Virus record (IMG/VR): IMGVR_UViG_3300015366_000306
Span: 1 to 38,317 of that record
DNA length: 38,317 bases
From: a virus
Strand: one strand, 5' to 3'
The notes beneath the pieces are model-generated. The model saw only the letters and a program-made list of their open reading frames with translations, made no database searches and was not told the origin of the DNA. Of the stretch, positions 1 to 37,853 are shown in pieces; within the stretch, counting starts at the first letter, position 1, and each line of letters begins with the position of its first letter. Both the position numbers and the translations under genes were made by a program.

Positions 1-18
1 AGACGCGGAGGAAGAGGA

Positions 19-539: not shown

Positions 540-540
540 C

Positions 541-828: not shown

Positions 829-864
829 ATAGCTGAAAACCAGCCGGTTATTGGTAAGCCAGAA

Positions 865-1227
865 ATGGTGTACCATCCGGCCATGACACCACCCACAGGC
901 GAACCAAGGGGCAGGCCACGCGTGCATGACCGGCAGCAACTGCTGGAATTGCTGGAACAGTACATTGCCAACACGCCCATTCCCATACTTGCGGAATTTG
1001 CATACCTGAACAATCTGCATAGGCAGCAATTATATGAATTTCCCGAATTATCTGACGCTATAAAAAAGGCGATTTCCAAAAAGGAAGCAGCACTGGAAAT
1101 GGGGGGATTGACCGGATCCCTGAACCCAAGCATGGCCATATTCAGCCTGAAGCAGTTGGGCTGGGCTGACAGCCAGAAGACCGTCACTGAACACGAAATC
1201 AAAATTGTGGGCGGGTTACCGGATTGA
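865..1227 (+). CDS. terS: Terminase small subunit (probable)
   Basis: Probable small terminase, which binds the packaging site and hands DNA to the large subunit. The 120-aa protein has a basic N-terminus (GEPRGRPRVHD), a helix-turn-helix-like middle (LLELLEQYIAN ... LYEFPELSDAIKKAISKKE) and a C-terminal segment containing NPSMAIFSLKQLGW. That last segment is the pattern usual in phage small terminases (AIFALKNxGW). It sits directly before the large terminase and overlaps it by 4 nt. A later start at the ATG in MTPPTGE is also possible. Confidence 0.75.
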   Translation: MVYHPAMTPPTGEPRGRPRVHDRQQLLELLEQYIANTPIPILAEFAYLNNLHRQQLYEFPELSDAIKKAISKKEAALEMGGLTGSLNPSMAIFSLKQLGWADSQKTVTEHEIKIVGGLPD

Positions 1228-2498: not shown

Positions 2499-5400
2499 TG
2501 AGTTCAATTAACATAAATTCCACCGTACTGCCGTCAGAATTGCTCAAAATTCTGGATGCCAATGAAGTTCAAGTTGGTTCATCGGTCAGTTACCAGCTAT
2601 GCAAATTGCTTTGGGAATATCACCCGCTGGCCGGAAAGATCATTGAAAAACCAATCCGGCTGGCATTGTCCAAGTCCCGCAAGATCAACATTCCGTGCGC
2701 AATTGAAGATCAGCTGAAGGAAGCGTTTGAACGGGAATGGGAGCGGCTGGGGGCAACAAACCACATCCGAGACACCATGTATTTGTCCCGTGTGTATGGC
2801 GCATCAGCGATTGTTTACGGGTCACCCGCTATCCCAACCACTGACCCAATTGATCCGTGGAAATTGGCAGATCTGCCGGATCTGTATTTTAACCAGCTGG
2901 ATCCGCTGAATCTGGCCGGATCCATTGTGACCAACCAAAACCCGAATGCACCGGATTTCCAAAAGCCAAACCAAAGCATTACCGCCGCCGGACAACCGTA
3001 CCACCAAAGCCGTACATGTACGATTTTTTGCGGCACGCCAATTTACCTTTCATTCCAAGGATCCAGCTTCAGTTTCAGCGGCAGATCCCTATTTTTGAGA
3101 GCGTTGTATCCGCTGAAATCATTCATCCAAACCATGACGGTGGATGATCTGGTTTCCCTGAAGGCGGGGCTATTGATTGCCAAGATCCAGCAATCTGGAT
3201 CCATCGTGAATCGGTTGATGCAGGCTGGCGCGACTGGCAAGCGGGATCTGCTGAAGGAAGGGCAAACCGGAAATGTGCTTTCCATCAATCCTGACGAATC
3301 CATTGAATCAATCGACTTGAACAATACGGACAAGGCCATGACCGTGGCGCGGAACAACATCATTGCCAACATTGCGGCGGCATGTGACGTTCCGGCCATC
3401 CTGCTGAAGGATGAAGCATACACGCAAGGGTTTGGGGAAGGCACCGAAGATGCCAAGGCGGTGGCGCAGTACATTGAGGGGTTGCGCCATGACATGGCCA
3501 GCCTGTATGCCTATTTCGACAAAATTGTTCAGCACCGCGCATGGAATAAGGAATTCTACCAAGCGTTGTCCAATGACCATCCTGAAGAAATCGGGCAAAT
3601 GTCATATGAACAATTTTTCTATTTTGCACATAACCTGTTCAAAACAGAGTGGCCAACCCTGCTGGAAGAACCGGAATCCGAAAAGATCCGGCGTGACTCA
3701 GACAAGCTGAAAGCTATGGCTGACGTACTGAAGACGCTGGGCGCAATGGTGGATCCAGAAAATAAGGCGCGGGTGGTTGAGTGGTTCACGGACAACATCA
3801 ACGGCATGACCGGCCTGTTTGCATCACCGATGGAGCTGGACATTGAAGCATTGGCCGAATACGAACCGCCACAAGAGGGCGGCGGTATGCCTGACATGGG
3901 CGGCGGTGATACGCCTGACGGCCATGATCATGACCACGGCGGCGGTGGTGGCGGCATTGCTGCCAAAGCAGATTCTGATTGGAAAGAGTCTGATCACCCG
4001 CGGGCGAAGGATGGCAAGTTTGGCAGCGGCGGCGGCGCGGCCAGTGAACCGGCCAATAAGTCAAAAGATTACGGATTCAAGCGCACTCAAAAATCCCAAT
4101 GGATGGGTACTGGATTTGGGAAAATGCCAGCAAGTCATGGGTTGACCGTAGGCGGCAAAGAAACGGGCTTTACAATATCCGGAACAAGGTCAGGCAATTA
4201 TTATGTATATGATCCAACCGGCAAAAAGGTAGAAACGTCATCTTCATTTGAGTTGGCCAAAGAAGCTGCCCGTGAACATTACGAAAATTACAATCGCAAA
4301 GAATACAACCGCAAAGAACGGCAGCCGCATGAACCAAAAGAAGAAAAGCCAGTACTAACCGTGCCTGAACAGTTGGCAGAACGTGAGTCTGATTTGGGAT
4401 CCATTGATATTCCACAGGCTGAAGGTTCAAGCATCAAGCCAGATCAAACCAGAAAGGATTTAGGCGCGAAGTACAAAGAAGCGGCCAAGCTGAAGCCAAA
4501 ATACGATGATCAGATGCTGGGGATTGCCACTGAGCTGGGCGTTCAGGATCAGATCATGCTGGCACCGCTGAAAGGCGTGAAGCGTGCAGTGGAAAAGATT
4601 GTGGGCGATTACAAGGGCAATGCAAACAAGATCAAAGATCTGGTACGCGGAACCATTGTGGTGGATGACTTTGAACAGACATTGAAAGCCATTGACATGA
4701 TCAGCCAGCGCATGGGTAAACCGCTGGGCTTGCGCAATGGGTTGGTTGAGGGATCCGAAGCCGAATCACCGGACGGATACCGCGACATTAAAATGAACAT
4801 TGAAATTGACGGCCATGTGACTGAAGTTCAGGTGAACTTCAAAGAAATGATTGAGGCAAAAGATGGCGAAGGTCACAAGCTGTATGAGGCTGCACGAAAA
4901 ATTCAAACAAATGCAAATGCCGAAGGCAGGCAGCTGACTGAAAATGAAGAACGTGAAGTTTTCAGATTATTTGCAGAACAAAAGAAAGTTTACAATGCGG
5001 CATGGGACAAAATCCAAGCCAGAGCATCCAAAGGAGGCGGGAAATCAACCGCAAAAAAAGCTGACGCGGTTACAGCCGCAAATGACGATGAACACTGGAT
5101 CACGTTAAACGGCGGCGAAGGCAAGGATGGCGAGGGTCACGGTCAGCATGTGCTGATCAATGGATCCGGCGAGGTTGTGGGCGGTGCTGGCGGCAAACTG
5201 AACGGCAAGAAGCTGGAGGGCGTACAGTCCAAGTCCAAGGATGTGGATTTCAAAGTACCAAGGCCAGCCGGAGAGCAAAAGACGGCTGCAACAGAATTAA
5301 CCGGTGATCAAAAAGCATTGGCCAGCTGGGGCAGCAACTCGCATGACGGCATGATCAATTTCTGGAAAACAGATCCAACCAGAGAAACGCCAGATGGCAA

Positions 5401-6970
5401 AAATCTGGAAGAAATGGCCGAAAGTGAACTTCAAAAGCTGGAAGAAGGCAAAGACACCGTTACGCAATACCTGACCGAACGTGATATGCCGAAGGAAGTT
5501 GTTGAGCAGATACGTCAGGAAGCAATCCAGAAATGGACTGATTTGGTAAGAACGTCAAAGGACACGAAATCCATATTGAGTATGGAAACAAAAAGCCCAC
5601 ATTTAAGGGACACTATTCTTGATGATTTCAAGGCCGCTATTGTGGCAGGCGAAGGAATTGACAGAGTAGAAAGGCAGGCCGTGCAAATGGTCAAAGAAAT
5701 GGGCGTGAGTGAAGAAGCCGCAAAAGAATATGTAAACAAAATCAAAGAAGAAACCACGGATTCAAGTCAAATCAGATCAATGGCCAGAAAATTTATTCTC
5801 ACGCCTGCACAACAAAAGGCTTGGGACATGGGCTGGAAATTAAATCAAGCAATTGCAAATAATACATACGCTGGCCAATCTGATCTTGGAAAATTATTGC
5901 TGGAGCTTGATGAATTAAGAACCCAATCCATTGAAAAAATGGTCAAGTTGGGCATGGATAAAGAACAGGCCGAAAGTTGGGGAGACAGCATAAGAGATTA
6001 CGGTATGCCCAGAATGATGGAGTCCCATAAAAAATGGGAAATCCAACAAGAGCTAAATGCAAATCAAGCTAAAAGTAGACAGCAATTGATTGAAAAGACT
6101 CATGCGGATGCCTTAATAGACAGGCAGCGCGTGGAAAAGAACAAAACAAATTTTGTTCCATATACCCCACAAAAAACGGTTGCAGATGCTGCAAGGTTTG
6201 TTGTTCAAAGCAATTACGCGGCAGCCGCTAATTTTGGAAAAATGAACATTGATGTTGTAAATGCTCAGATTGAATCGCTGTCATTCCATTTGCAAAAATT
6301 CCCTGAATTGGCCGCAGAACAAAGAAACATGGGATCCATTCAGGTCAGGGCAAAGGATATTGTTAAGGCAGGAAAAAGTTCAGAAAAAGAGTGGGCTAAA
6401 CTTGCTGTAAAGAAAATCCAACCAAATCTGACTGAAGAGCAGCTGGAAAAAGAAGTTGAGGCTTTTCTAAACAGAAGACATAAGCTGGAAAAAACCAGTG
6501 GCAAAACGTGGGCATATAGCGTTGGTGATGCACATACTTATGACACTCAACGTGATTGGAAAGGAGTGTTCTTTAATGAAAAGTATGCTGCTGATACAGA
6601 ATTGTTTCAAAAAACATTAGATGTATCACTTGCGATCAAATGGCATCCAGTAGGATGCGACACTATAAAATCTGTCGCTGATCATGAATACGGTCATCAA
6701 ATGGATAATTTGTTGAAATTGGTTGATAAAACCGGAGTTGGCACCAGAGGTTTTACTGATCCCAGAATGCAAAAAATATGGGAAGATGCCAGCAAAGACG
6801 GTAAAGCAGGCATGAAGGAGCTGGTGAGTGAATATGCCGCAGAAAATAAAATGGAATTTATTGCTGAATGTTGGGCTGAATACTTGAATAACCCACAGCC
6901 AAGAAGTACAGCATTGGCAATGGGTTGGTTGATTGAAGACATTTACGCTGAAAAATTTGGGAAAAAATAG
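2498..6970 (+). CDS. Giant portal protein fused to RelA/SpoT-like and zincin metalloprotease modules
   Basis: A 1490-aa protein, about three times a normal portal. Residues 1 to about 465 resemble DUF1073-type portals, which form the DNA entry vertex. A Gly/His-rich linker and the motif SDWKESDHPRAKDGKFG (493-509) follow. Next come a small beta-rich segment (about 520-595) and a RelA/SpoT-like region (about 625-845). This carries IKDLVRG (D714, R717), GYRD (G760-Y761), EVQV (E776, Q778) and HKLYE (H793-E797), which match the nucleotide- and metal-binding positions of (p)ppGpp synthetases. A second linker (about 862-903, ending GGKLNGKKL) leads into a long helical region. The C-terminus is a zincin with HEYGH (H1396-E1397-H1400) and FIAECWAEY (E1457). 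The start overlaps the terminase stop (TAATG). The portal assignment is firm from motif and position. Enzyme activity is inference. Confidence 0.92.
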   Translation: MSSININSTVLPSELLKILDANEVQVGSSVSYQLCKLLWEYHPLAGKIIEKPIRLALSKSRKINIPCAIEDQLKEAFEREWERLGATNHIRDTMYLSRVYGASAIVYGSPAIPTTDPIDPWKLADLPDLYFNQLDPLNLAGSIVTNQNPNAPDFQKPNQSITAAGQPYHQSRTCTIFCGTPIYLSFQGSSFSFSGRSLFLRALYPLKSFIQTMTVDDLVSLKAGLLIAKIQQSGSIVNRLMQAGATGKRDLLKEGQTGNVLSINPDESIESIDLNNTDKAMTVARNNIIANIAAACDVPAILLKDEAYTQGFGEGTEDAKAVAQYIEGLRHDMASLYAYFDKIVQHRAWNKEFYQALSNDHPEEIGQMSYEQFFYFAHNLFKTEWPTLLEEPESEKIRRDSDKLKAMADVLKTLGAMVDPENKARVVEWFTDNINGMTGLFASPMELDIEALAEYEPPQEGGGMPDMGGGDTPDGHDHDHGGGGGGIAAKADSDWKESDHPRAKDGKFGSGGGAASEPANKSKDYGFKRTQKSQWMGTGFGKMPASHGLTVGGKETGFTISGTRSGNYYVYDPTGKKVETSSSFELAKEAAREHYENYNRKEYNRKERQPHEPKEEKPVLTVPEQLAERESDLGSIDIPQAEGSSIKPDQTRKDLGAKYKEAAKLKPKYDDQMLGIATELGVQDQIMLAPLKGVKRAVEKIVGDYKGNANKIKDLVRGTIVVDDFEQTLKAIDMISQRMGKPLGLRNGLVEGSEAESPDGYRDIKMNIEIDGHVTEVQVNFKEMIEAKDGEGHKLYEAARKIQTNANAEGRQLTENEEREVFRLFAEQKKVYNAAWDKIQARASKGGGKSTAKKADAVTAANDDEHWITLNGGEGKDGEGHGQHVLINGSGEVVGGAGGKLNGKKLEGVQSKSKDVDFKVPRPAGEQKTAATELTGDQKALASWGSNSHDGMINFWKTDPTRETPDGKNLEEMAESELQKLEEGKDTVTQYLTERDMPKEVVEQIRQEAIQKWTDLVRTSKDTKSILSMETKSPHLRDTILDDFKAAIVAGEGIDRVERQAVQMVKEMGVSEEAAKEYVNKIKEETTDSSQIRSMARKFILTPAQQKAWDMGWKLNQAIANNTYAGQSDLGKLLLELDELRTQSIEKMVKLGMDKEQAESWGDSIRDYGMPRMMESHKKWEIQQELNANQAKSRQQLIEKTHADALIDRQRVEKNKTNFVPYTPQKTVADAARFVVQSNYAAAANFGKMNIDVVNAQIESLSFHLQKFPELAAEQRNMGSIQVRAKDIVKAGKSSEKEWAKLAVKKIQPNLTEEQLEKEVEAFLNRRHKLEKTSGKTWAYSVGDAHTYDTQRDWKGVFFNEKYAADTELFQKTLDVSLAIKWHPVGCDTIKSVADHEYGHQMDNLLKLVDKTGVGTRGFTDPRMQKIWEDASKDGKAGMKELVSEYAAENKMEFIAECWAEYLNNPQPRSTALAMGWLIEDIYAEKFGKK

Positions 6971-7461: not shown

Positions 7462-7495
7462 ATTTTAACACAAAACCCACACAAATCTAATACTT
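7462..7495 (-). promoter_or_regulatory. Promoter-like palindromic element of the inserted reverse gene
   Basis: On the reverse strand the stretch reads AAGTATTAG, then about 20 nt, then TGTGTTAAAAT. It has the same AGTATT half-site and spacing as the elements before early genes elsewhere in the window, though the second half is degenerate (AAATC instead of TAATACT). TAAAAT is a plausible -10, about 20 nt before the ATG of the 60-aa gene. On the forward strand TTAACA-17 nt-TAATAC also looks promoter-like, but it would start transcription inside the MuF start codon region. Moderate confidence. Confidence 0.4.
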
Positions 7496-7497
7496 AA

Positions 7498-8313
7498 ATG
7501 GCCAGCCGCAAAACATTCTTTCAGGTTTTGACTGAAGCAATAGATTACTTTGCAGCCAAGGGCTATACGTCACAGGCTGACCTAAATCGCTGGATCCGTC
7601 TACTAAAAGAAGCACTGGACAGGCAATTGGGGTCGCCGAAACATTCAGAAGCTGAAGTACGGCGGGTGCTGAAGGCGGTCTATAACCGGCAGATCATCCG
7701 TGGCGGCGCACTGAAGCAAAACCCAACCGTGACCAAATTCAGCGTGGACATGCTGAAACCAACCATGCGGCGGGAGCTGGAACGGCGAATGCTGGCCAGT
7801 GCCAACCTGATCAAGCTGAACCGGCAAGAGGCCATTTCATCCACATTGCGGCGGTTTGAGGGCTGGGCAACCAGTATTCCCAAAGGCGGCAGCAAGGCGG
7901 TAGAAATCCGCAAGGAAAAAACCAAGATCCGGAAAGCGGTGATTGCCCTGACGTATCAAGAGCGGCGGGTGATCATTGACCAAAGCCAGAAATTTGCAGC
8001 CGCCCTGAATGCAACCATTGCCACGGACAACCGCGCAATTGCCGCTGAGTGGCACTCACGCTGGCGCACGGCTGGGTACGACTACCGCGAAGACCACAAG
8101 GAGCGGGATGGCAAAATCTATGCAGTGGCAGACAACTGGGCGATTCGAGAGGGGTTGATGAAGGCTGGAAAGCATGGCTACACTCAGGACATAACGCAAC
8201 CAGCAGAAGAAGTGTTCTGCCAGTGCCGTTACACGTACATTTACTCCATTGCTTCATTGCCCGATGACATGCTGACCGAAAAGGGGCGAAGGCTTCTGAA
8301 CTCCGCGAAATAA
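7498..8313 (+). CDS. MuF-like head morphogenesis (minor capsid) protein
   Basis: The 271-aa protein resembles the Mu gpF / SPP1 gp7 family, which sits at or near the portal and is packaged in small numbers. The N-terminal part is helical (FFQVLTEAIDYFAAKGYTS). The C-terminal part has the family pattern REDHKERDGKIY (near 197-208), GYTQDITQPAEEVFCQCR and a final helix. Position after the portal fits. No clear Shine-Dalgarno is seen before ATG 7498; the upstream 54 nt belong to the inserted reverse gene's control region, so the insertion may have replaced its original leader. Unlike many MuF proteins it has no C-terminal toxin extension, since here the portal carries the extra modules. Confidence 0.85.
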   Translation: MASRKTFFQVLTEAIDYFAAKGYTSQADLNRWIRLLKEALDRQLGSPKHSEAEVRRVLKAVYNRQIIRGGALKQNPTVTKFSVDMLKPTMRRELERRMLASANLIKLNRQEAISSTLRRFEGWATSIPKGGSKAVEIRKEKTKIRKAVIALTYQERRVIIDQSQKFAAALNATIATDNRAIAAEWHSRWRTAGYDYREDHKERDGKIYAVADNWAIREGLMKAGKHGYTQDITQPAEEVFCQCRYTYIYSIASLPDDMLTEKGRRLLNSAK

Positions 8314-10202
8314 TGCCAGCCAAATCCGCAGCACAAGAAAGGCTCATGCAGGGCGTTGCCCATAATCCAGAATTTGCGCGGAAGGTGGGCATTCCACAGC
8401 GCGTGGGTAAGGAATTTGTGGATGATCAGTCACTGCTGACCCCACGGGTTGAGGCGGCATCAATTGCGCCTTCCGGATCCGGTGGCCGTGCGGCGGGAAT
8501 CATGTTCCTGACGGATTCCGGCGAAACTTTGTTATTGCGTAGGGGTGACGGCGGGGACTATCCCAACACGTTTGGGCTGGCCGGTGGCCATCAAGAGCAT
8601 GGCGAGACGCTGGAGCAGTGCGCAAGGCGGGAGGCCGAAGAAGAAACCGGCATGAAGTATTCCGGCAAGCTGGAGCTGATACAGGACAACGGCCAATTTG
8701 CGACCTATCTGGCACGGATCCCTGAACAGTTCCCAGTCCATTTGTGCGATGAATCCACCGGCTATGTCTGGTGCAAACCGTCCGAAGCACCGCAACCGCT
8801 GCATCCGGCCATGAATGTGACGCTACGGGTGGCCAGCGCACAAACCGAATATGACGTTGCCCAATTGATGGCTGAAGGGCTGCTGTCATCACCACAGGTG
8901 TACGCCAACATGCACCTGCTGGCGTTGCGGATCACCGGAACAGGGTTGGCATACCGCAGTGCCATTGGCGAACACGTTTGGCGGGACGCGTCCCTGTACC
9001 TGAATGATGAATTTTTGAAGCGTTGCAACGGTCTAATGGTCATCATGGATCACCCTGAAGGATCCATCCTGACCGGCGAGGAATTCAAGAAACGTGCGAT
9101 TGGCGCGGTCATGCTGCCATACATCCGAGGGGATGAAGTCTGGGGAATCGCACGGATCTATGATGAAGAGGCAATGAATGAGATTTGCGAAGGCGAAATC
9201 TCAACGAGTCCGAGCGTAGTGTTTGACGATACAGCCGAAAACACCACGCTCAAAACAGAGGAAGGCGAACCGCTCTTGATAGAAGGCAAAGCGTTCCTAC
9301 TAGATCACATTGCCATTGTGACCAAAGAAAGAGGGTCACGGGGCGTGTGGGACAAAGGCGGTGCGCCAACAGGCGTTGAACTTAATAACCCAGAGGTAAT
9401 TCCCATGACCGATGCAGTAGCAAAGGCAGATGCGGCCAGCGATAAGCTGGATCAGCTGCTTTCCCTAATGACCAAGATCAGTGCGCGTGTAGATGCACTG
9501 GAAAACATGCCAGCAGCACCGCTAGTCAAAGCTGCTGACAAAAAGCACGATGACGATGATTCAGCCCATCATGAAGTCAAAGAAGACGATGAAGAGGCCG
9601 GTTCTGAAGTCAAAATGGACGATGAAGAAGCGTTCGACCATCACATGAGCAAGGCCGCCGGTCACCATCTGCTGAAGGCCGCCGACAAAAAGCGGAAAGA
9701 TGCCGAAGGATCCAATCCGGTGGAAAATGCACTTGAAGGCGAACATGCCGGTGAAATGCGTCCCGATGACGATGATCTGGCCGCCGAAAAGGAAGACGAA
9801 AAACATGCCCGTATGGACGATTACCGCGCAAAGGCAGATTCAGTTCTGGCCGCGTTCGGCAAATCAGCCAGCCGCCCATTGCAGGGCGAAGGCGTGACCG
9901 CATACCGCAAGCGTTTACTGCGCGGTTTGCAGGGTTACAGCGATGCATACAAGGGCGTGAATCTGCGTTCTATCAGCGATGCCAAGTTGCTGGAAATTGC
10001 TGAAAAGCAGATCTACGCAGATGCAATGGTTGCTGCCAAGTCGCCAGTTGCTTACGGTGATGCCCTAGTGGAACACCGCACAACTGACCGTGCTGGCCGC
10101 ACCATCAGCACATTCACGGGTAAGGTCAGCGCATGGTTGGATCAATTCAAAGTTGAACCAATGCGTGTGGTTGAATTCCGTACCCACAACGTCAACCGTT
10201 AA
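8313..10202 (+). CDS. DUF3008-like / Nudix hydrolase / DUF2213 prohead maturation protein with scaffold tail
   Basis: A 629-aa multidomain fusion. Residues 1-38 (MPAKSAAQERLMQG ... GIPQRVGKEF) match the short DUF3008-like peptide common in phages. Residues about 55-165 are a Nudix hydrolase with a complete Nudix box: G92, E98, R106-E107, E110-E111, G113. Such enzymes cleave nucleoside diphosphates linked to another group. Residues about 180-365 resemble DUF2213 (VIMDHPEGSILTGEEF; STSPSV), a family in prohead-protease position. From 365 on there is a coiled, acidic, scaffold-like tail with a DDDD/EDDEEA-rich middle. ATG 8313 overlaps the MuF stop (TAATG). The capsid genes follow directly. The substrate of the Nudix domain is unknown. 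Confidence 0.9.
   Translation: MPAKSAAQERLMQGVAHNPEFARKVGIPQRVGKEFVDDQSLLTPRVEAASIAPSGSGGRAAGIMFLTDSGETLLLRRGDGGDYPNTFGLAGGHQEHGETLEQCARREAEEETGMKYSGKLELIQDNGQFATYLARIPEQFPVHLCDESTGYVWCKPSEAPQPLHPAMNVTLRVASAQTEYDVAQLMAEGLLSSPQVYANMHLLALRITGTGLAYRSAIGEHVWRDASLYLNDEFLKRCNGLMVIMDHPEGSILTGEEFKKRAIGAVMLPYIRGDEVWGIARIYDEEAMNEICEGEISTSPSVVFDDTAENTTLKTEEGEPLLIEGKAFLLDHIAIVTKERGSRGVWDKGGAPTGVELNNPEVIPMTDAVAKADAASDKLDQLLSLMTKISARVDALENMPAAPLVKAADKKHDDDDSAHHEVKEDDEEAGSEVKMDDEEAFDHHMSKAAGHHLLKAADKKRKDAEGSNPVENALEGEHAGEMRPDDDDLAAEKEDEKHARMDDYRAKADSVLAAFGKSASRPLQGEGVTAYRKRLLRGLQGYSDAYKGVNLRSISDAKLLEIAEKQIYADAMVAAKSPVAYGDALVEHRTTDRAGRTISTFTGKVSAWLDQFKVEPMRVVEFRTHNVNR
9405..10202 (+). CDS. Nested in-frame scaffold protein (alternative internal start)
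   Basis: Inside the maturation fusion, in the same frame, GAGGTAATTCCC precedes ATG 9405. This is a stronger ribosome site than that of the parent gene. The product (265 aa, starting MTDAVAKADAAS) would be the helical, acidic C-terminal part alone: a coiled coil LDQLLSLMTKISARVDALE, an acidic middle, then a folded end. This mirrors the lambda C/Nu3 arrangement, in which the protease gene contains the scaffold gene. Translation from this start is inferred from the sequence only. Confidence 0.5.
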   Translation: MTDAVAKADAASDKLDQLLSLMTKISARVDALENMPAAPLVKAADKKHDDDDSAHHEVKEDDEEAGSEVKMDDEEAFDHHMSKAAGHHLLKAADKKRKDAEGSNPVENALEGEHAGEMRPDDDDLAAEKEDEKHARMDDYRAKADSVLAAFGKSASRPLQGEGVTAYRKRLLRGLQGYSDAYKGVNLRSISDAKLLEIAEKQIYADAMVAAKSPVAYGDALVEHRTTDRAGRTISTFTGKVSAWLDQFKVEPMRVVEFRTHNVNR

Positions 10203-31207: not shown

Positions 31208-31417
31208 TTACCCCAGTACATTTATGAATGCCAGATATTCTGGTTCAGGGATTTTTTCTTCCAAGACATTTGAAGCCAAAAAGAAAATCATTCCAGAACC
31301 CAGCTGATTGCTTTTGTATGCCAGCTGAACAATTTCTTTCAGCTTTGGGATACTTAACCCGTTCAACATAAACAGGATTTTTTCTTGATTCTGTTTTTTT
31401 TCTGCATTTGCATTCAT
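31208..31417 (-). CDS. Hypothetical helical early protein
   Basis: 69 aa, charged N-terminus (NANAEKKQNQEKILF) and helices (PKLKEIVQLAYKSNQL). The ribosome site GGAGAATTATC is strong. It is the first gene after the palindromic promoter element at 31453-31488 and heads a small leftward operon running to 30593. Function unknown. Confidence 0.65.
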   Translation of the reverse strand: MNANAEKKQNQEKILFMLNGLSIPKLKEIVQLAYKSNQLGSGMIFFLASNVLEEKIPEPEYLAFINVLG

Positions 31418-31452
31418 GATAATTCTCCGTGAGTGATGATTTCGCCTTCAGA

Positions 31453-31488
31453 AGTATTACAACACACAATCCAATGTGTTGCAATACT
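31453..31488 (-). promoter_or_regulatory. Palindromic promoter/operator element (copy 1)
   Basis: A near-perfect palindrome: AGTATTACAACACA on one side and TGTGTTGCAATACT on the other, 8 nt apart. Read leftward it gives TTGCAA-17 nt-TAATAC, a plausible sigma-70 promoter for the operon starting at 31417. The overlap of promoter and symmetry suggests repressor or activator control. The same element precedes other early genes. Confidence 0.65.
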
Positions 31489-31494
31489 TTTGTT

Positions 31495-31707
31495 TCAACT
31501 TGGTTGTTGATTTTTCAATGCAAGCATTCTGTTTTTTGAATTATTTCTGCACACAATTAAAATCATTAAAACGGCACTGTCTATTTCAACTTCTCTTTGA
31601 ACCAACTTACCGGCGGCACAAAGCAGTTCTTTATGTAAATCCGCTTCAGACAATTCTGCAAACTTTTGCCAGCTTGCCTTGAAAAGATCTTCTTTTTCAT
31701 CTTGCAT
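31495..31707 (-). CDS. Hypothetical helical early protein
   Basis: 70 aa (MQDEKEDLFKASWQKFAELS ...), helical and charged, with one LMILIVCR stretch. The ribosome site GAGGAAAAATC is strong, and the palindromic element copy 2 lies about 35-65 nt upstream. Function unknown; no domain recognised. Confidence 0.66.
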   Translation of the reverse strand: MQDEKEDLFKASWQKFAELSEADLHKELLCAAGKLVQREVEIDSAVLMILIVCRNNSKNRMLALKNQQPS

Positions 31708-31742
31708 GATTTTTCCTCTTGAGTGATAAATGAACTGTCAAA

Positions 31743-31774
31743 AGTATTAGAACATGTCTTGTGTTTTGGTGCAA
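31743..31774 (-). promoter_or_regulatory. Promoter/operator element (copy 2, one half degenerate)
   Basis: Reading leftward: TTGCAC-19 nt-TAATACTTTTG. The half-site TGTTCTAATACTT is identical to copies 4 and 6; the other half is degenerate. It overlaps the end of the 56-aa gene and lies before the 70-aa gene at 31707, whose leader ATCACTCAAGAGG resembles leaders of the other copies. Confidence 0.55.
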
Positions 31775-31917
31775 CGGTCATTTTGCAAAAGCGGTGGAAT
31801 TTCTATGACTTTTTTTATTTCATCATTGGTTGTGGTGTATCCAGCTGACTCCAACGCTTTCTGAACGTCATTAAAAAATTTTGCTGATACGCTGATTAAA
31901 ATTGGATCCTGATTCAT
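31747..31917 (-). CDS. Short early protein, unknown
   Basis: 56 aa, start MNQDPILISVSAKFFNDVQK; helical with a basic end (NDRCTKTQDMF). It follows the Ref-like nuclease gene after 3 nt, so it is likely translated from the replication transcript. The ribosome site (AGGTGAAAT) is moderate. The final codons overlap the copy 2 promoter element. Confidence 0.6.
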   Translation of the reverse strand: MNQDPILISVSAKFFNDVQKALESAGYTTTNDEIKKVIEIPPLLQNDRCTKTQDMF

Positions 31918-31920
31918 ATT

Positions 31921-32196
31921 TCACCTGTTGTTTGACAATAAATTTTGTGTGGTTTCCAAAAGGTCTTCTTCGGTTAGCCCATAGCGGGAAACAAACGCTT
32001 TTCTGCCCAACCCGTGGACTCCGGTGGATCCACGGTGATGTTCAGGGCAAAGCGGGATGATTGGTGACTTTGCCCTGACTGCGCCAAATCGCCTGAGATG
32101 ATGAATTTCGGCTGGGGTGCTACCGTACCCAAGGGTGCGGCACAAAACGCAACCCAGCGCGGCGGTATCTGATAGCAGGCGGGTTTTTTTGGTCAT
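31921..32196 (-). CDS. Ref-like RecA-dependent nuclease / HNH-type protein
   Basis: 91 aa from ATG 32196, which overlaps the stop of the P-like gene (ATGA). The pattern is CVLCR, EIHHLRRFGAVRAKSPIIPLC in pieces, PEHHRGSTGVHGLG and YGLTEEDLL. This is the signature of the P1 Ref family (HNH-like fold with a Zn knuckle), which cuts DNA at RecA D-loops. The role is likely recombination or Holliday-type processing during phage replication. Good match by pattern; activity not shown. Confidence 0.75.
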   Translation of the reverse strand: MTKKTRLLSDTAALGCVLCRTLGYGSTPAEIHHLRRFGAVRAKSPIIPLCPEHHRGSTGVHGLGRKAFVSRYGLTEEDLLETTQNLLSNNR

Positions 32197-32702
32197 CTGT
32201 CGGCCATTTTGTAGGTAACCCTGTCCCATGCTGCAAACATGGCTGTTTTTATGTCAGCACCGGTCAATGATGGATCTTCTTGCATCATTTGCTGAAAATC
32301 GACCACCAGCCGGTTTTTCTCACGGATGCACTCTTCCAGCTGAACTGCGGTGACTTTGTTTGTCCAGCAATAGGCCAGCAGGCAACGCTGTGCATGGGCA
32401 TAGACTGGATCCGCATATTCTGGACGCGGCAACGCTGGCCGCTGAACTTCAGGCGGCGTGTCTTCATCAGCGTATTTACAAGCAGCCACAAACTGCGGCA
32501 ACGTGGGCGGCGTAGCACCGCCTTTGAACAATAGCTTGCGCAAACCGCGCTGCAATTCAAAATCCTTGAAGCCATTGATGGCTGCCTTCCACATTTGGGG
32601 TGGAACGTCCCCATAATTTGCAATGAACTTGCTGCCGTACATTTCAGCCAAACTTGTCCAAATTTCCACCGATTTGTCTCTGGGTGCTGACCACTCGCCC
32701 AT
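32193..32702 (-). CDS. Replication protein P-like helicase loader
   Basis: 169 aa from ATG 32702 (MGEWSAPRDKSVEIWTSLAE), chosen because GGGAG lies 7 nt upstream; a second ATG 6 nt earlier is too close to it. The sequence AEMYGSKFIANYGDVPPQMWKAA and GGATPPTLPQFVAACK follow the lambda P / phage replication P family (LxxxYGxxFxxxYG, PPTLPEF). Such proteins load the host DnaB helicase at the origin. It overlaps the end of the O-like gene by about 60 nt. Confidence 0.72.
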   Translation of the reverse strand: MGEWSAPRDKSVEIWTSLAEMYGSKFIANYGDVPPQMWKAAINGFKDFELQRGLRKLLFKGGATPPTLPQFVAACKYADEDTPPEVQRPALPRPEYADPVYAHAQRCLLAYCWTNKVTAVQLEECIREKNRLVVDFQQMMQEDPSLTGADIKTAMFAAWDRVTYKMADR

Positions 32703-33582
32703 CTTCATTCTCCCGATTTTGATTTGCCAACCGTACACGATCAATTGCCGAAACCTGTCTAACGTCCTGAACCTGATTGGGTGCTGTCCACGGTTCTTTG
32801 AACCCAGCATTACGGCCAAGGAACGTGGCCGCCTGCTGCACAAACTCTGTCCCAACCTTGCCGGTTACCCGCATGAATTGGGCGTACCGGCTGACACCGG
32901 CCATGATTTCTTCATGGGTCACCCCGCTGGCAAGCTGGGCGTGATATGCCCGTTCCGCATCTTTCCACCGCTGGCCGCCGCCGCGTTGTGGGTACGCCAT
33001 CCGGATTTCTTCAAACCTACTGGCCAATTCATCCGCTTTTTGTTCCCGCTCACGCTTGGCGTGTGCGCTCTTAAATTCTTTCTTCTTCTTTTCTGCATCT
33101 GCATCTGCATCTGCATCTGCTATGTGTGATGTTACGTCACTGTCACGTAACGTCACGGCGTTACGCCTACGTTCACGCATCCGTCTTTGGCGTTCTGCTG
33201 CTGTATGGTCGCGGTCACGGTATCGAAAGTAATTCAGGACGATGAAACCGCCATTGATGCGAACCAGCCGCCTTCCGTCATAGTCTTCTGAGCGGGACTC
33301 AGGATCTGGATTCCCCAACCTTTCCAAGGCGGCCATGCCGGTTTCCTGATCCAGCAGCGCACGATTGACTATGCCAATGCCTGCTGCACGCACGAACCCG
33401 TACCAACCCACTGGCACCATGAACCCTGAAGGCTCAATAGCGCGAACCTGAAGGGCTTCAGCCGGTTCCGTCAGTTCAAACGGTTCTGCCATGAGCAGTG
33501 CGGTGATAAACATTTCACGCACTGGCCGGTCAACCCACAAGGTTGAATCCAGCACGCCCGTATCTAATTTCACAAATGCCAT
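32644..33582 (-). CDS. Replication initiator, O-like
   Basis: 312 aa. The N-terminus (FVKLDTGVLDSTLWVDRPVREMF) resembles phage replication initiators that carry a winged-helix DNA-binding domain. The middle is basic (AERQRRMRERRRN) with an ADADADADAEKKKK linker from a hexanucleotide repeat. The C-terminal part (MAYPQRGGGQRWKDAERAYHAQL) resembles replication-protein helicase-interacting domains. A sigma-70 promoter lies 30-60 nt upstream and GGTGAATTT precedes ATG. The P-like gene follows, as O/P in lambda. Confidence 0.75.
   Translation of the reverse strand: MAFVKLDTGVLDSTLWVDRPVREMFITALLMAEPFELTEPAEALQVRAIEPSGFMVPVGWYGFVRAAGIGIVNRALLDQETGMAALERLGNPDPESRSEDYDGRRLVRINGGFIVLNYFRYRDRDHTAAERQRRMRERRRNAVTLRDSDVTSHIADADADADAEKKKKEFKSAHAKREREQKADELASRFEEIRMAYPQRGGGQRWKDAERAYHAQLASGVTHEEIMAGVSRYAQFMRVTGKVGTEFVQQAATFLGRNAGFKEPWTAPNQVQDVRQVSAIDRVRLANQNRENEDGRVVSTQRQIGGNLDKFG
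33093..33120. repeat. Hexanucleotide microsatellite (CTGCAT)n in the initiator gene
   Basis: CTGCAT repeats four full times plus CTGC over 28 nt. On the coding (reverse) strand it is GCAGAT and encodes alternating Ala-Asp between the basic region and the Lys/Glu run. Six-nt units keep the frame, so slippage would only change linker length. Confidence 0.85.
33131..33163. other. Candidate origin repeats inside the initiator gene
   Basis: GTTACGT (33131-33137) and ACGTAAC (33145-33151) are inverted 7-mers. GTCACGGCGTTA at 33152-33163 recurs at 33607-33618 in the promoter region. Clustered symmetric and direct repeats inside an initiator gene are as in lambda O. No DnaA box was noticed. Candidate only. 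Confidence 0.35.
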
Positions 33583-33614
33583 AAATTCACCGTTACACGT
33601 TACGCTGTCACGGC

Positions 33615-33644
33615 GTTATATCGTGACTGGTTTAATTCTGTCAA
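33615..33644 (-). promoter_or_regulatory. Sigma-70-like promoter of the replication genes
   Basis: On the reverse strand TTGACA (33639-33644), an 18-nt spacer and TATAAC (33615-33620), about 35 nt before the initiator start. A perfect -35. It overlaps GTCACGGCGTTA (33607-33618), which also occurs inside the initiator gene, suggesting autoregulation. Confidence 0.68.
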
Positions 33645-33695
33645 CTGTCGCTGGAAAACTCAACCAAAAATTTAAGCCTGAGTTTCTTTGACAAC

Positions 33696-33734
33696 CCGCA
33701 CGATAAGGGGCGTTTTTTTCTGGTTATCGTGCGG
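33696..33734. repeat. Perfect 11-bp inverted repeat in the intergenic region
   Basis: CCGCACGATAA at 33696-33706 and TTATCGTGCGG at 33724-33734, separated by 17 nt with a T7 run. It lies between RusA (ends 33769) and the replication promoter. No T-run follows the stem on the reverse strand, so it is not a classic terminator. An operator or origin element is more likely. Confidence 0.7.
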
Positions 33735-33768
33735 TGACTATCGGCATTGGCCAATGGGCAAAGATTGC

Positions 33769-34164
33769 CTATATGCCCACGGTTGTTTGCCCACGGTTCC
33801 GTATGTGACGGATTTTGACCACGCACTGGCCGCCGGTTACCGGTGGCATTCTGACAATCAGCAGCCGATCTACCTGAAAATCATCATTCCAAACCCCTGC
33901 ACTCTTTAGCGCATCAAGTAACGGTTTTTGCACATTGTCCAAATCCCTGATCCGTTTATCCGGCGGGTACAAATAGATCCTGCAATCAACTTTCGCATCA
34001 CCAAATGGCTGAATGCCAGAATCAACATATGCAATCCATGTTCTGGATTTGAATGCCACTGCTGTTTTTGTAAGCCATCGGCGTGATCCATTGAAGCCCC
34101 AATATGTATTCACGGAAGGTGGATATGGCAAAATCAATGTTGCAATACTTTTTTTGTCAGGCAT
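33769..34164 (-). CDS. rusA: RusA-family Holliday junction resolvase
   Basis: 131 aa, near the 120 aa of E. coli RusA. The N-terminus PYPPSVNTYWG (13-23) and the motif PPDKRIRDLDNVQKPLLDAL carry the catalytic aspartates: D74, D76 and D95 correspond to RusA D70, D72 and D91, and K80 to K76. It resolves four-way junctions produced by replication and by the ERF/exonuclease system encoded next to it. It starts 36 nt from the divergent ERF gene, with GGGGTTCATT as ribosome site. Confidence 0.9.
   Translation of the reverse strand: MPDKKSIATLILPYPPSVNTYWGFNGSRRWLTKTAVAFKSRTWIAYVDSGIQPFGDAKVDCRIYLYPPDKRIRDLDNVQKPLLDALKSAGVWNDDFQVDRLLIVRMPPVTGGQCVVKIRHIRNRGQTTVGI
34137..34150 (+). promoter_or_regulatory. 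Promoter half-element (copy 3) before the ERF gene
   Basis: ATGTTGCAATACTT is the right half of the repeated element. It lies about 50 nt before ATG 34201, followed by the leader AATCATCAAAAAGGTGAATCAC similar to the leaders of the other copies. It overlaps the start of rusA, so its bases also code for KKSIATL. No clear -35; medium-low confidence. Confidence 0.45.
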
Positions 34165-34200
34165 AATGAACCCCGTTTAATCATCAAAAAGGTGAATCAC

Positions 34201-34809
34201 ATGAAAGTCTATACAGCAATAAATCAAGTTCAGGAAGAGCTTTCCAAAATGGGGATTGCCAAGGATAGAAAAGGCGAAGGCATCAATTATAAATTCCGTG
34301 GCATTGATGACATTTACAACGTGCTTGCCGGTTTGCTGGCAAAGTATAAGTTGTGCATTCTTCCACGGGTTCTGACGCGTAACTGTCAGGAGCGCACCAC
34401 CAGAAATGGCGCAATGCTTTATTTCACCACGCTGGATGTTGAATACGATTTCGTATCAGCTGACGATGGTAGCAAGCACACAATCCGCGTATCTGGTGAA
34501 GCAATGGATACCAGTGACAAATCTACCAATAAAGCCATGTCTGCGGCGTATAAATACGCATGTTTGCAAACATTCTGTATTCCAACAGAAGCTGATAACG
34601 ACATTGAAAATGAAAGTCATGAGGTAATGCCTACGGTCAATGTTGATACGCTGGTTGCTGAAATCAACAATGCAAAAACATTGGATGAACTGAGGAAAAC
34701 CTATCTGGTTGCATTGAAACAGGCATCTGCCAATTCTCATGCAAAGAAAAGGCTTGAAGAGGCCAAAGACAAAATGAAAATCATTCTTTCAGACAAGGCA
34801 GGTGTGTAA
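34201..34809 (+). CDS. erf: ERF-family single-strand annealing protein
   Basis: 202 aa from ATG 34201 after AAAAAGGTGAATCAC; an upstream GTG at 34192 is within that site. The family signature is INYKFRGIDDIYNVL near residue 28, then GEAMDTSDKSTNKAMSAAYKYACLQTFCIP in pieces near 98-125. ERF proteins anneal complementary strands and act with a 5'-3' exonuclease. The exonuclease gene follows with a TAATG overlap, so the pair is a Red-like recombination system. Confidence 0.88.
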   Translation: MKVYTAINQVQEELSKMGIAKDRKGEGINYKFRGIDDIYNVLAGLLAKYKLCILPRVLTRNCQERTTRNGAMLYFTTLDVEYDFVSADDGSKHTIRVSGEAMDTSDKSTNKAMSAAYKYACLQTFCIPTEADNDIENESHEVMPTVNVDTLVAEINNAKTLDELRKTYLVALKQASANSHAKKRLEEAKDKMKIILSDKAGV

Positions 34810-35483
34810 TGTTGGTTTTAGATAAAACAATTGATACCAAACAGCTTGATCAAACAGATCCAGCTTGGATGTTGGCGCGGCTGGGGCATATCACCGCATC
34901 CTGCATGGATGATGTGATGGCCAAGGGCAAAACCGGTGAAGCGGTTACGCGGTACAAATACAAAATCAAGTTGCTTGCGGAACGTATGACCGGCGTGGGT
35001 CAGGACTCATACAACAACGCGGCAATGGATTGGGGCAAAAGTCAGGAACAGTTTGCGGCGCAGGCGTATGAGTTGCGGCGTGAAATACTGCTGGACAAGA
35101 CCGGATTCTGGCGGCATCCAACTATTGAATGGCTGGGGGCATCACCTGACCGGTTGGCCGGTGATGTTGGTCTGGTTGAGATTAAATGCCCGAATACGTC
35201 CACGCATTTAACGTGGATGCTGTCTGGATCCAGCACCATGCCGTCAGAGTATGTGAAGCAAGTGCAAGCGCAGTTGTGGATCTGCGAAAAGGAATGGTGT
35301 GATTTTGTCAGCTTTGATCCACGGCTGCCGGAAAAAAACCAGCTGCACATTATCCGTGTCACGCGTGATGAAGAGCTGATCAAGAAAATGGAGGCCGAAT
35401 CCATTTCATTTTTGCTGGAGGTGCAGGATCTGATCAATCAATTAAACAGCTGGCCATCGGTTCCGGTGGCGGCAGGGGTGTAA
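34809..35483 (+). CDS. YqaJ / lambda-exonuclease-like recombination nuclease
   Basis: 224 aa. Residues 17-31 (DPAWMLARLGHITAS) and the core LGASPDRL, VGLVEIKCPN provide D114 and E124-x-K126, the metal-binding triad of this PD-(D/E)xK family. QVQAQLWICEKEW is the usual helix behind the active site. It degrades 5' ends of linear DNA, feeding ERF. ATG overlaps the erf stop. Confidence 0.88.
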   Translation: MLVLDKTIDTKQLDQTDPAWMLARLGHITASCMDDVMAKGKTGEAVTRYKYKIKLLAERMTGVGQDSYNNAAMDWGKSQEQFAAQAYELRREILLDKTGFWRHPTIEWLGASPDRLAGDVGLVEIKCPNTSTHLTWMLSGSSTMPSEYVKQVQAQLWICEKEWCDFVSFDPRLPEKNQLHIIRVTRDEELIKKMEAESISFLLEVQDLINQLNSWPSVPVAAGV

Positions 35484-35485
35484 TC

Positions 35486-35923
35486 ATGTTGGGTGTAAAC
35501 AAAGTCATTGTTGTTGGCACGCTGGGCAAGGATCCAGAAATGCGCCAAATGCAGAACGGCAATCAAGTTGCCAATATCAGCGTTGCAGTTACAGAGAAAT
35601 ACAAAGACAAGGAAGGCAACAAACAAGAGCTGACCGAATGGATCAATGTTGTATTTTTCGGAAAGGTTGCGGAAATCGTTGGGGAGTATTGCCACAAAGG
35701 ATCCAAGATCTACGTTGAAGGCAAGATGAAAACAGAAAAGTACGAAAAGAACGGTCAGACTCATTACGCAACCAAGGTTGTGGCCGCTCAGATGCAGCTG
35801 CTGGGCGATAAGTCCGGCGGCCAACAGGAACGGTCACCGGCAAAAGAAACGCATAGCAAACAAAAGGCTAATGCGTATCAGAAGCAGGATGAAGCGGAAT
35901 TTGATGACGATATTCCATTCTGA
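35486..35923 (+). CDS. ssb: Single-stranded DNA-binding protein
   Basis: 145 aa with the SSB OB-fold pattern: MLGVNKVIVVGTLGKDPEMR, then TEWINVVFFGKVAEIVGEY and GSKIYVEGKMKTEKYEK. The tail is disordered and ends DDDIPF, the acidic peptide that recruits partner proteins. It would coat ssDNA made during phage replication and by the exonuclease. A terminator follows. Confidence 0.93.
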   Translation: MLGVNKVIVVGTLGKDPEMRQMQNGNQVANISVAVTEKYKDKEGNKQELTEWINVVFFGKVAEIVGEYCHKGSKIYVEGKMKTEKYEKNGQTHYATKVVAAQMQLLGDKSGGQQERSPAKETHSKQKANAYQKQDEAEFDDDIPF

Positions 35924-35925
35924 TC

Positions 35926-35959
35926 AAAAGACGGCTGGAGAAATCTGGCCGTTTTTTTT
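35926..35959 (+). terminator. Rho-independent terminator after ssb
   Basis: AAAAGACGGC pairs with GCCGTTTTTTTT across TGGAGAAATCTG (stem 35931-35935 with 35948-35952, extended by A-T pairs), followed by T8. It ends the erf-exo-ssb operon, just upstream of promoter element copy 4. Confidence 0.75.
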
Positions 35960-35973
35960 GGCCAATGAAAAAA

Positions 35974-36009
35974 AGTATTGCAAATGAATTTGCAGTATGT
36001 TCTAATACT
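35974..36009 (+). promoter_or_regulatory. Palindromic promoter/operator element (copy 4)
   Basis: AGTATTGCAA, an internal GCAAATGAATTTGC symmetric segment, then TGTTCTAATACT. As a promoter: TTGCAA-19 nt-TAATAC. It lies about 40 nt before the gene at 36048, and the leader AATCATTACTTTTTGGAGAAATCATC matches that of copy 5. Confidence 0.6.
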
Positions 36010-36047
36010 TCTGCGGTTGGAAATCATTACTTTTTGGAGAAATCATC

Positions 36048-36230
36048 ATGATCAAGAAATCAAATTATTACGCTCTTTGTGTTAATGACCGAATTGCCAG
36101 AAAGGGCAGCAAAGCGGAATTGGTTAAGGTCATGGTGGCAATGCTGAAGGAAAACCCAAACATGGATGTACACGTTAGCCCGTCATATGGTCAAGTTGGC
36201 GAAATCCAGAAAATCAATCTTGATATTTAA
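36048..36230 (+). CDS. Small early protein, unknown
   Basis: 60 aa (MIKKSNYYALCVNDRIARKG...), basic then helical (AELVKVMVAMLKENPNM). GGAGAAATCATC is a strong ribosome site. It stands alone between two copies of the promoter element, so it is probably its own transcription unit. No domain is recognised. The similar opening gene structure to the next gene suggests both are regulated alike. Confidence 0.68.
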   Translation: MIKKSNYYALCVNDRIARKGSKAELVKVMVAMLKENPNMDVHVSPSYGQVGEIQKINLDI

Positions 36231-36252
36231 GCGGCAGCATGTTGTAATACTT
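36220..36252 (+). promoter_or_regulatory. Promoter element (copy 5, right half only)
   Basis: TTGATA-19 nt-TAATAC with the conserved TGTTGTAATACTTT. It overlaps the stop of the 60-aa gene. The leader AATCATCATTTTTTGGAGAAATCATC before ATG 36289 is nearly identical to that of copy 4, probably by duplication. Confidence 0.58.
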
Positions 36253-36288
36253 TCCGTCCGGTAATCATCATTTTTTGGAGAAATCATC

Positions 36289-36579
36289 ATGGTCAAATTC
36301 AATCAATACAACGTCCAGCTTGGCAATGTGAAAGTCAAGGTTTCGTACTGGCAGAACAGCAATCTGGAAATCGTGATCTATGCCAAAGATTACGGATATG
36401 AACTGAAGGATGTGCTGCCGGATCTGGCTTATAACGGCAGTGACGTAATGATTGATTACTTTGAAAAAAGCAAGGCAGTCATTCCAGTGGGTCACCCGTT
36501 GTACAGTGCGGCGTATGACCGATACCTTGTGAACCAGATCAAGCAGGATCAGAAAAGAGCAGCGCGGAGGGTCGCATAA
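36289..36579 (+). CDS. Hypothetical early protein
   Basis: 96 aa. Beta strands first (VQLGNVKVKVSYWQNSNLEIVIY), then helices and a basic end (KQDQKRAARRV). The ribosome site GGAGAAATCATC is strong. Stop TAATG overlaps the next gene. Function unknown; a small DNA- or RNA-binding role is possible given the basic tail. Confidence 0.68.
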   Translation: MVKFNQYNVQLGNVKVKVSYWQNSNLEIVIYAKDYGYELKDVLPDLAYNGSDVMIDYFEKSKAVIPVGHPLYSAAYDRYLVNQIKQDQKRAARRVA

Positions 36580-36890
36580 TGAACTACGCAAGCAAAATTG
36601 GTTGGTCTGACATTGACCCGTATGAAATCGTGAAGCGGGTCAGCGAAAAGTGTCTGGAGGTTCGGGAAATGGATTCTGAGCGGGATCCATTTTGGCGGCC
36701 AGAAGCGGAGGTTGGCGGTTTTTTAGCCCACGTTAAAAATAACGTGGATCAGCGGTGGATCTGTTCCAGCAACCCAAAGGCGGCGGTGGTGCGGATCCGG
36801 TTGCATAAGGATGGCCGGTGGCGCGATAAGTTCGGCAATAAGTACCGGCTGGCAAATCAACCGGAAAAATTTTACGACTACAATTTCTGA
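36579..36890 (+). CDS. Hypothetical early protein
   Basis: 103 aa, acidic N-terminal helix (DIDPYEIVKRVSEKCLEVREM) and a basic C-terminal beta part (AVVRIRLHKDGRWRDKFGNKYRL). It overlaps the previous stop by one base. No family is recognised. Confidence 0.66.
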   Translation: MNYASKIGWSDIDPYEIVKRVSEKCLEVREMDSERDPFWRPEAEVGGFLAHVKNNVDQRWICSSNPKAAVVRIRLHKDGRWRDKFGNKYRLANQPEKFYDYNF

Positions 36891-36898
36891 GGTGAAAA

Positions 36899-37216
36899 AT
36901 GAACAAGGCATTGAGAAAAGAGCTGGGCGGGTACATTGATCAAATCACCGCAATCGCAACCGTAATTGAAAGCCAAGTGCGGGATCTAAATTTGATTGCG
37001 GAAAGGCTGGTTGAAATCCGCGATGAAAAGGAAGAAAAGTTTGAAATCTTATCAGACAGCGCAAAAGAGTCTGAAAAGGGGCAGGAGCGTTATCAGGTCA
37101 TTAGCGAATTGACCAATGCCATTGACCACATTGAAAGCGTGCTGACTGCGCTGGATTGCAATGACCTGACTGAAGCGGTATCAGAAATTGATAATGCAAG
37201 GGGACAGGAGGAATGA
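36899..37216 (+). CDS. Coiled-coil early protein
   Basis: 105 aa, almost wholly helical with heptad-like spacing (YIDQITAIATVIESQVRDL; IAERLVEIRDEKEEKFEIL). It starts after GAGGTGAAAA. An acidic end (EIDNARGQEE) overlaps the next gene (ATGA). Probably oligomeric; function unknown. Confidence 0.68.
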   Translation: MNKALRKELGGYIDQITAIATVIESQVRDLNLIAERLVEIRDEKEEKFEILSDSAKESEKGQERYQVISELTNAIDHIESVLTALDCNDLTEAVSEIDNARGQEE

Positions 37217-37413
37217 ACACGTACATTGTTCAGGTCTGTTCTTTAAGCAACCACAGAAAGACAATTGAAAAGATGGTTGTGATTGCGCCAAGCGTGGAGC
37301 TGGCGCATGAAAAAGCGGTGGCGAAATGTAGCAACCCAGACAATGGGGAGGTAAAGAAAGTTGAATGGGTTTTGGATGTGGTCAGAGTTTCGGCAACATC
37401 ATTTTACGCATAA
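37213..37413 (+). CDS. Hypothetical early protein
   Basis: 66 aa, an alternating strand-helix-strand pattern (NTYIVQVCSLSN; APSVELAHEKAVAKC; KKVEWVLDVVRVS), like a tiny ferredoxin-like fold. Ribosome site GGAGGA. It is the last gene of its operon, before promoter element copy 6 and the overlapping terminator. Function unknown. Confidence 0.66.
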   Translation: MNTYIVQVCSLSNHRKTIEKMVVIAPSVELAHEKAVAKCSNPDNGEVKKVEWVLDVVRVSATSFYA

Positions 37414-37449
37414 AGTATTGCAAACCCGTTTTGGATGTGTTCTAATACT
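37414..37449 (+). promoter_or_regulatory. Palindromic promoter/operator element (copy 6)
   Basis: AGTATTGCAAACC ... GGATGTGTTCTAATACT; as promoter TTGCAA-19 nt-TAATAC. It begins at the stop codon of the preceding gene and lies about 40 nt before ATG 37491, whose leader (AATCATCACTCAGGAGAATC) is close to that of copy 1. Confidence 0.62.
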
Positions 37450-37467
37450 TCTGACGGGTTTTTTTTT
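37422..37467 (+). terminator. Terminator that encloses the promoter element
   Basis: AAACCCGT (37422-37429) pairs with ACGGGTTT (37454-37461), followed by more T (to 37467). The 24-nt loop contains the TAATACT of promoter copy 6. It would stop transcripts coming from upstream, while initiation inside it would make transcripts lacking the left arm, so it would not stop those. Confidence 0.6.
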
Positions 37468-37490
37468 AATCATCACTCAGGAGAATCGAC

Positions 37491-37853
37491 ATGAATTTGC
37501 AAGTTTCTGGCGTTGAACACAACCAGCGCATTGCCGGTCAGTATGAAATGGTTGAGGCTATTCGGGCATACATTGCCCACATTTTGGCCGATTATGACCA
37601 ATATGATCCAAACCCAGTGCCATCAAACCGCATGAGCTACGTGGCTGAAGCTGGTAGCAAGTACATCAAAATTATAAGGGTGTATTCGGACAATAGCAGA
37701 TCTGTTCACAGTTTCGTTGCCATTCAGGATGGCGGCAAGTTCAAGGCTGGTGACATTCTCAAGGCTGCTGGATGGAAGGCACCGGCATTGAATTTTGCAC
37801 GCGGTAACGTGCTGAGTGGCGATTTCAAGGGCATCCGTTGGATGGGGGCGTAA
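37491..37853 (+). CDS. Hypothetical early protein
   Basis: 120 aa with a helix (EMVEAIRAYIAHILADY) and a beta part (KYIKIIRVYSDNSRSVHSFVAI) followed by FKAGDILKAAGWKAPA, a pattern seen in small phage proteins of unknown function. AGGAGAATCGAC precedes ATG. It is the first gene behind promoter copy 6. Confidence 0.7.
   Translation: MNLQVSGVEHNQRIAGQYEMVEAIRAYIAHILADYDQYDPNPVPSNRMSYVAEAGSKYIKIIRVYSDNSRSVHSFVAIQDGGKFKAGDILKAAGWKAPALNFARGNVLSGDFKGIRWMGA

Follow-up and report, generated by a model that had tools for sequence, protein, structure and literature searches.

The 38,317-nt stretch analysed here (the window; positions 1 to 38,317 of IMGVR_UViG_3300015366_000306, from an uncultured tailed phage) probably carries a reiterated early-promoter cassette, in which host-type promoters lie mostly inside a shared, operator-like dyad of one presumed regulator. 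The dyad is an 11-bp inverted repeat, AAGTATTGCAA-N16-TTSTAATACTT, set in a fixed 38-bp frame that overlaps the predicted -35 and -10 hexamers. A second contig, IMGVR_UViG_3300014933_000358 (hereafter L046), which was retrieved by the IMG/VR motif scan, matches window positions 1-2256 with 100% identity over 2,256 bp; the two records overlap and belong to one phage, which L046 extends leftward by about 5.7 kb. The same site stands at several promoters of this phage, with five strong copies in the window and three in L046 (Table 1), which brings the strong copies of the phage to at least eight. No viral contig was found that spans the gap from the end of the window to the distal end of L046.

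The sequence, spacing, register and placement of the element are directly observed, as is its conservation in one relative. An earlier note on this DNA had described a repeated promoter/operator serving both strands in six copies. Such an element is supported by five strong copies (31464-, 31754-, 35998+, 36240+ and 37438+); the sixth (34138+) is weak, and nowhere else in the window is a comparable score reached. A search of the window for AGTATT-N18..26-TAATACT confirmed the observation, with three exact two-armed matches against 0.00 expected in shuffles, and the motif is not equally frequent in coding DNA. The right half, TGTTSYAATACTT, had been called nearly constant; it is exact at all six listed copies, and the 38,317 bases contain seven exact occurrences in all, the remaining one being the second arm of the palindrome at 31453. 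The palindrome itself was recovered at 31453, 35974 and 37414, but 31743 and 36220 hold the right arm with a TTG box, and 34137 the right arm alone. When 56 regions preceding likely genes were searched de novo, the box was the most repeated 13-mer (six occurrences, against three to four in shuffles). Because the position weight matrix was built from ten sites, those of the window included, its scores show how far these sites stand out from the remaining window sequence and are no independent test: the five strong window sites reach 30-53 bits, besides them only two positions of the window, both of them palindromes read on the reverse strand, pass 12 bits (seven in total), and the maximum in a reversed-sequence control is 1.6. 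The supposed partial copy at 7462-7495 proved to be a different element: it consists of TCTAATACTT alone, a few bases upstream of an ATG, falls below the threshold and was dropped.

Table 1. Copies of the element and accompanying features (window coordinates unless L046 is named; promoters and the genes that they drive are predicted)
Feature	Position	Strand	Details
Full dyad promoter	31450..31491	-	left arm 31489-31479, right arm 31462-31452; -35 TTGCAA 31484-31479, N17, -10 TGTAAT 31461-31456; predicted to drive ORF starting 31417
Right-arm promoter	31740..31781	-	TTGCAC-N17-TCTAAT; predicted to drive ORF starting 31707
Weak copy	34111..34152	+	right arm TGTTGCAATACTT only, without -35; 50 nt before erf (34201)
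Full dyad promoter	35971..36012	+	left arm 35973-35983, right arm 36000-36010; -35 35978-35983, -10 TCTAAT 36001-36006; predicted to drive ORF 36048-36230
Right-arm promoter	36213..36254	+	TTGATA-N17-TGTAAT; predicted to drive ORF 36289-36579
Full dyad promoter	37411..37452	+	left arm 37413-37423, right arm 37440-37450; -35 37418-37423, -10 TCTAAT 37441-37446; predicted to drive ORF 37491-37853
Further full dyads in L046	3435, 3833, 7341		each before a gene
Cassette leader	31415..31451	-	AATCATCACTCACGGAGAATTATCATG
Cassette leader	31705..31741	-	TTTATCACTCAAGAGGAAAAATCATG
Cassette leader	36011..36050	+	AATCATTACTTTTTGGAGAAATCATCATG
Cassette leader	36253..36291	+	AATCATCATTTTTTGGAGAAATCATCATG
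Cassette leader	37451..37493	+	AATCATCACTCAGGAGAATCGACATG
Terminator-like hairpin and T run	35932..35959	+	between ssb and next promoter; same place in L089

Aligned on the right arm, the ten strong copies (five in the window, three in L046 and two in the relative L089) have the form TTGnnn-N17-T[C/G]TAAT with an extended -10 TG, and are best read as predicted host sigma-70 early promoters. The distance from TTG to TGTTSTAAT is constant at 10/10 strong sites in two phages, and the spacer between them is not conserved between copies. Each of the ten immediately precedes a gene and is oriented with it, and the gene positions fit the predicted split early regulon. The gap had been given as 19 nt in four copies and 17 in one; this does not hold, the five strong copies being identical, with 19 nt to TAATAC equal to 17 nt to TSTAAT. 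In other words, TTGnnn-N19-TAATAC, common to all five strong window copies, is the N17 alignment read two bases later. The N17 register is preferred because its hexamers match at 5/6 positions against 3/6, and because of the TG. Its real weakness is the second -10 position, which is C or G in every copy and never A; this is a sigma-70 defect, on account of which a generic promoter scan omits the strong sites. The longer gap would suit activator-dependent promoters, composed of a -35 TTGnnn, a 19-bp spacer and a -10 TAATAC, with a spacer-centred dyad for a MerR-type activator of host or phage origin. The centre of the dyad does coincide with that of the spacer, the gap is constant at 19, and TAATAC supplies the A at the second -10 position. 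Nevertheless, TAATAC matches at only 3/6 positions and the TG fit is lost, two strong sites hold the gap without a dyad, the arms overlap the hexamers, counter to a MerR-type promoter, and the MerR_1 domain was not found in the three records; we consider such activation very unlikely.

The left arm provides the case for an operator. The sequence AAGTATTGCAA, or a close variant, lies 16 bp before TTSTAATACTT at 8/11 sites (the ten strong and one weak), and at these eight it is the reverse complement of the right arm at 8-10 of 11 positions; agreement with the consensus arm at nine or more positions is found in about 0.03% of 11-mers drawn at random from the window. It is present at all eight sites with non-coding upstream DNA and at none of the three where this DNA is coding (exact probability 1/165), a result which is suggestive only, since the sites are few and related, those of one phage not being independent. 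At 31754 and 36240 the position of the missing arm falls in the 3' ends of ORFs 31747-31917 and 36048-36230, respectively, and the weak copy at 34138 lies inside the 5' end of rusA (33769-34164, minus strand). The retention of the left arm in non-coding DNA and its absence from coding DNA thus suggest an operator, and the sharing of one 38-bp inverted repeat by most of the promoters points to one DNA-binding protein controlling them jointly.

A possible, if rather unlikely, alternative is that these are constitutive early promoters only, the arms being an extended consensus liked by host RNA polymerase and spread or homogenised by recombination, with nothing else binding the palindrome. Lytic phages commonly carry many near-identical early promoters, and other relatives have repeated promoter-like boxes of their own (L017). 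The right arm and the TTG also persist without the left arm at two sites, and a regulator gene was not found in our scans. Such an account would nonetheless leave the AAGTA upstream of the -35 and the last bases of the latter, CAA, as mirrors of the right arm, although promoter recognition needs neither; nor does it sit well with a left arm retained at every non-coding site, or with a second -10 position that is always C or G and never the better A. A third possibility is an intergenic RNA hairpin, acting as a terminator or processing site. Two copies do fold strongly as RNA (z about -7), but the other six are weaker (z -1.5 to -4.3), and the 16 inner bases are not conserved and pair no better than bases permuted between copies (20/64 pairs, p 0.48), so that the element consists of two arms held apart rather than a long hairpin. 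The stem has no U run after it, and neither the fixed loop length nor the TTG found where the left arm is absent would be explained; we therefore regard the RNA hairpin as extremely unlikely.

In the reading that we favour, of promoters mostly enclosed by an operator, the host RNA polymerase, carrying the housekeeping sigma factor, would start at TTGnnn-N17-T[C/G]TAAT (extended -10 TG) and would transcribe a short leader followed by one small early gene or a few of them. The left arm would cover the -35 and the right arm the -10, so that a bound protein would exclude RNA polymerase. The dyad would then be a likely shared operator, through which one regulator may shut off or delay all early promoters on both strands together. 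We infer from this arrangement that the promoters are active, that there is a regulator and that it represses rather than activates. The leaders had been said to match, and those of the strong window copies indeed have in common a similar sequence and a Shine-Dalgarno motif, AATCATCAYT...GGAG...ATG, of 34-40 nt in total. The distance from arm to ATG measured 34-40 nt (50 for 34137), in place of the 35-75 nt first proposed. The left arm often starts a few bases from the upstream stop codon, and most copies other than the one after ssb lie directly after stop codons. An inverted repeat, AACCCGT...ACGGGTTTTTTTTT, at window positions 37423-37467 spans the promoter at 37411 and is terminator-like for upstream transcripts.

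As for the regulator itself, the suggestion that one protein serves the whole set draws on the dyad, which is conserved, kept in non-coding DNA and present in L089, and it is from the dyad only that we infer such control; neither a phage regulator nor a host regulon with the motif was found in the scans. No regulator was recognised among about 30 early genes with Pfam, PHROGs and NCBIfam, scans to which non-HTH repressors are invisible. HTH_3 (PF01381) and phage integrase (PF00589), like MerR_1, gave no match in G000, G001 and G002, all of them genome fragments, and an immunity region of the temperate type, with integrase and CI/Cro-like genes, was not found in these three fragmentary records. 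A GTDB scan yielded no host regulon with the motif, its 15 single matches being scattered over unrelated taxa and near chance. A lambda CII-like TTGCN6TTGC pattern was also considered and differs from the one observed. The regulator may be encoded in the gap between the window and L046 or supplied by the host, or it may be of a family that such scans do not recognise; there may also be none. The half-sites are 27 bp apart, which is unusual for a simple HTH dimer. It can be imagined, although we find it quite unlikely, that this is a lytic phage with a genome-wide early shut-off operator, whose half-sites would be bridged by a regulator in which no DNA-binding domain can be recognised, or by a co-opted host protein; the phage shows no lysogeny genes in its fragmentary records. 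If the dyad is an operator, its sequence would offer a bait for fishing out the phage or host regulator, and would mark small unannotated genes of one early regulon.

The distribution of the element is narrow. A motif-only scan covered 2.9 million IMG/VR viral contigs, and a looser scan gave about 60 contigs that were scored by matrix; two contigs, L046 and L089, carry repeated sites of the dyad-promoter type, the other pattern matches being single or low-scoring among the matches listed. L089 is also the closest early-region relative found by protein comparison (SSB 66-79% by segment, Exo 65%, Erf 62%, RusA 57%). The proteins that it has in common with the phage are mainly those of recombination and replication and a Cys-rich protein; a small protein has its counterpart at L089 2241-2438, and a DUF1828 protein is weakly matched. 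Adjoining early genes with DUF1828 and DUF6978-like domains are found at L046 4392-5316. Of the two sites of L089, one follows ssb and the other a small Cys-rich gene; both are near those of the phage, but the genes downstream differ from those of the phage. The former is the counterpart, at the equivalent place, of the 35971..36012 promoter. The two sites stand 13 and 31 nt from the ATG, with a similar leader at the second only, and leader length is not common to this relative. No high-scoring copy was detected by matrix in 80 Exo relatives or 27 Erf relatives, the structural relatives PdC23 and YenM are without the element by the same measure, and isolate phages gave no convincing match to the cassette. 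The distant Erf relatives L018 (7285, 10130), L020, L022 (10682-10703) and L025 (3695) carry, a short distance upstream of genes, a TGTAATACT box with a different common leader, CACGAAAGGAAAT; this box may be related to the element or arise by chance. In relative L017 a promoter-like box of another kind, TTGT...GATAATAG, is repeated, at 7628-7673 and 9573-9618.

Two further features of the window may be recorded. Positions 2447-6970 hold a portal ORF of 1507 aa, whose long C-terminal extension matches head-morphogenesis and, weakly, zinc-peptidase profiles, and a separate Mu F-like ORF follows at 7498-8313. Over the whole window GGATCC occurs 52 times against 38 by Markov estimate, and AAGCTT and CTGCAG are absent against about 8 and 12 estimated; CGATCG is also absent, and the absence of these three words perhaps reflects restriction avoidance.

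Several known systems resemble the proposed cassette in part. The SPbeta repeated element (SPBRE) precedes several dispersed phage genes and was first seen in silico as an orphan operator, and its repressor, MrpR, has a tyrosine-recombinase fold instead of a classical repressor fold (PMC10516654). The likeness is one of arrangement, a conserved element before several dispersed phage genes; SPbeta is a Bacillus prophage with lysogeny functions, whereas neither integrase nor repressor was found in the records of this phage. The operators and stoperators of mycobacteriophage L5 and Cluster A also provide many copies of one site across a phage genome, as would be the case here for a putative regulator. 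However, each of those is an asymmetric 13-bp site to which a monomer binds, and most lie away from promoters (PMC6550527, PMC9283540), while the present sites are mostly dyads, all at promoter-like sequences. The T4-type PeSLs, as cited in PMC4503421 (Arbiol 2010, Comeau 2014), are reiterated early promoter/stem-loop cassettes between small genes with turnover of the adjacent genes. As far as that account goes, the likeness extends to the reiterated cassette, its place between small genes and the turnover next to it, and one copy here follows a terminator, but most copies in this phage are without a stem-loop terminator. PeSLs combine an early promoter with a stem-loop terminator; at the site after ssb, in both phages, a terminator-like hairpin precedes the predicted promoter. 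We know of no dyad operator in PeSLs. Promoters that stay fixed while downstream genes are exchanged would extend the T4 promoter-cassette idea to another kind of phage. The AimR operator of SPbeta phages, ATCACT-25-AGTGAT, has inverted repeats far apart (6-25-6, 37 bp overall; PMC9232636), close to the 38 bp found here, and shows that a distance of this order can be spanned by a phage dimer; AimR is, however, a Bacillus arbitrium receptor with an operator sequence unlike this element, and no such receptor is known here. We regard SPbeta and AimR as precedents and not as evidence of membership. Since dispersed operators (SPbeta/MrpR, L5) and early-promoter cassettes (T4 PeSLs) are both known, the general design is not new; what is new, as far as the searched collections show, is the sequence of the element and its presumed regulator.
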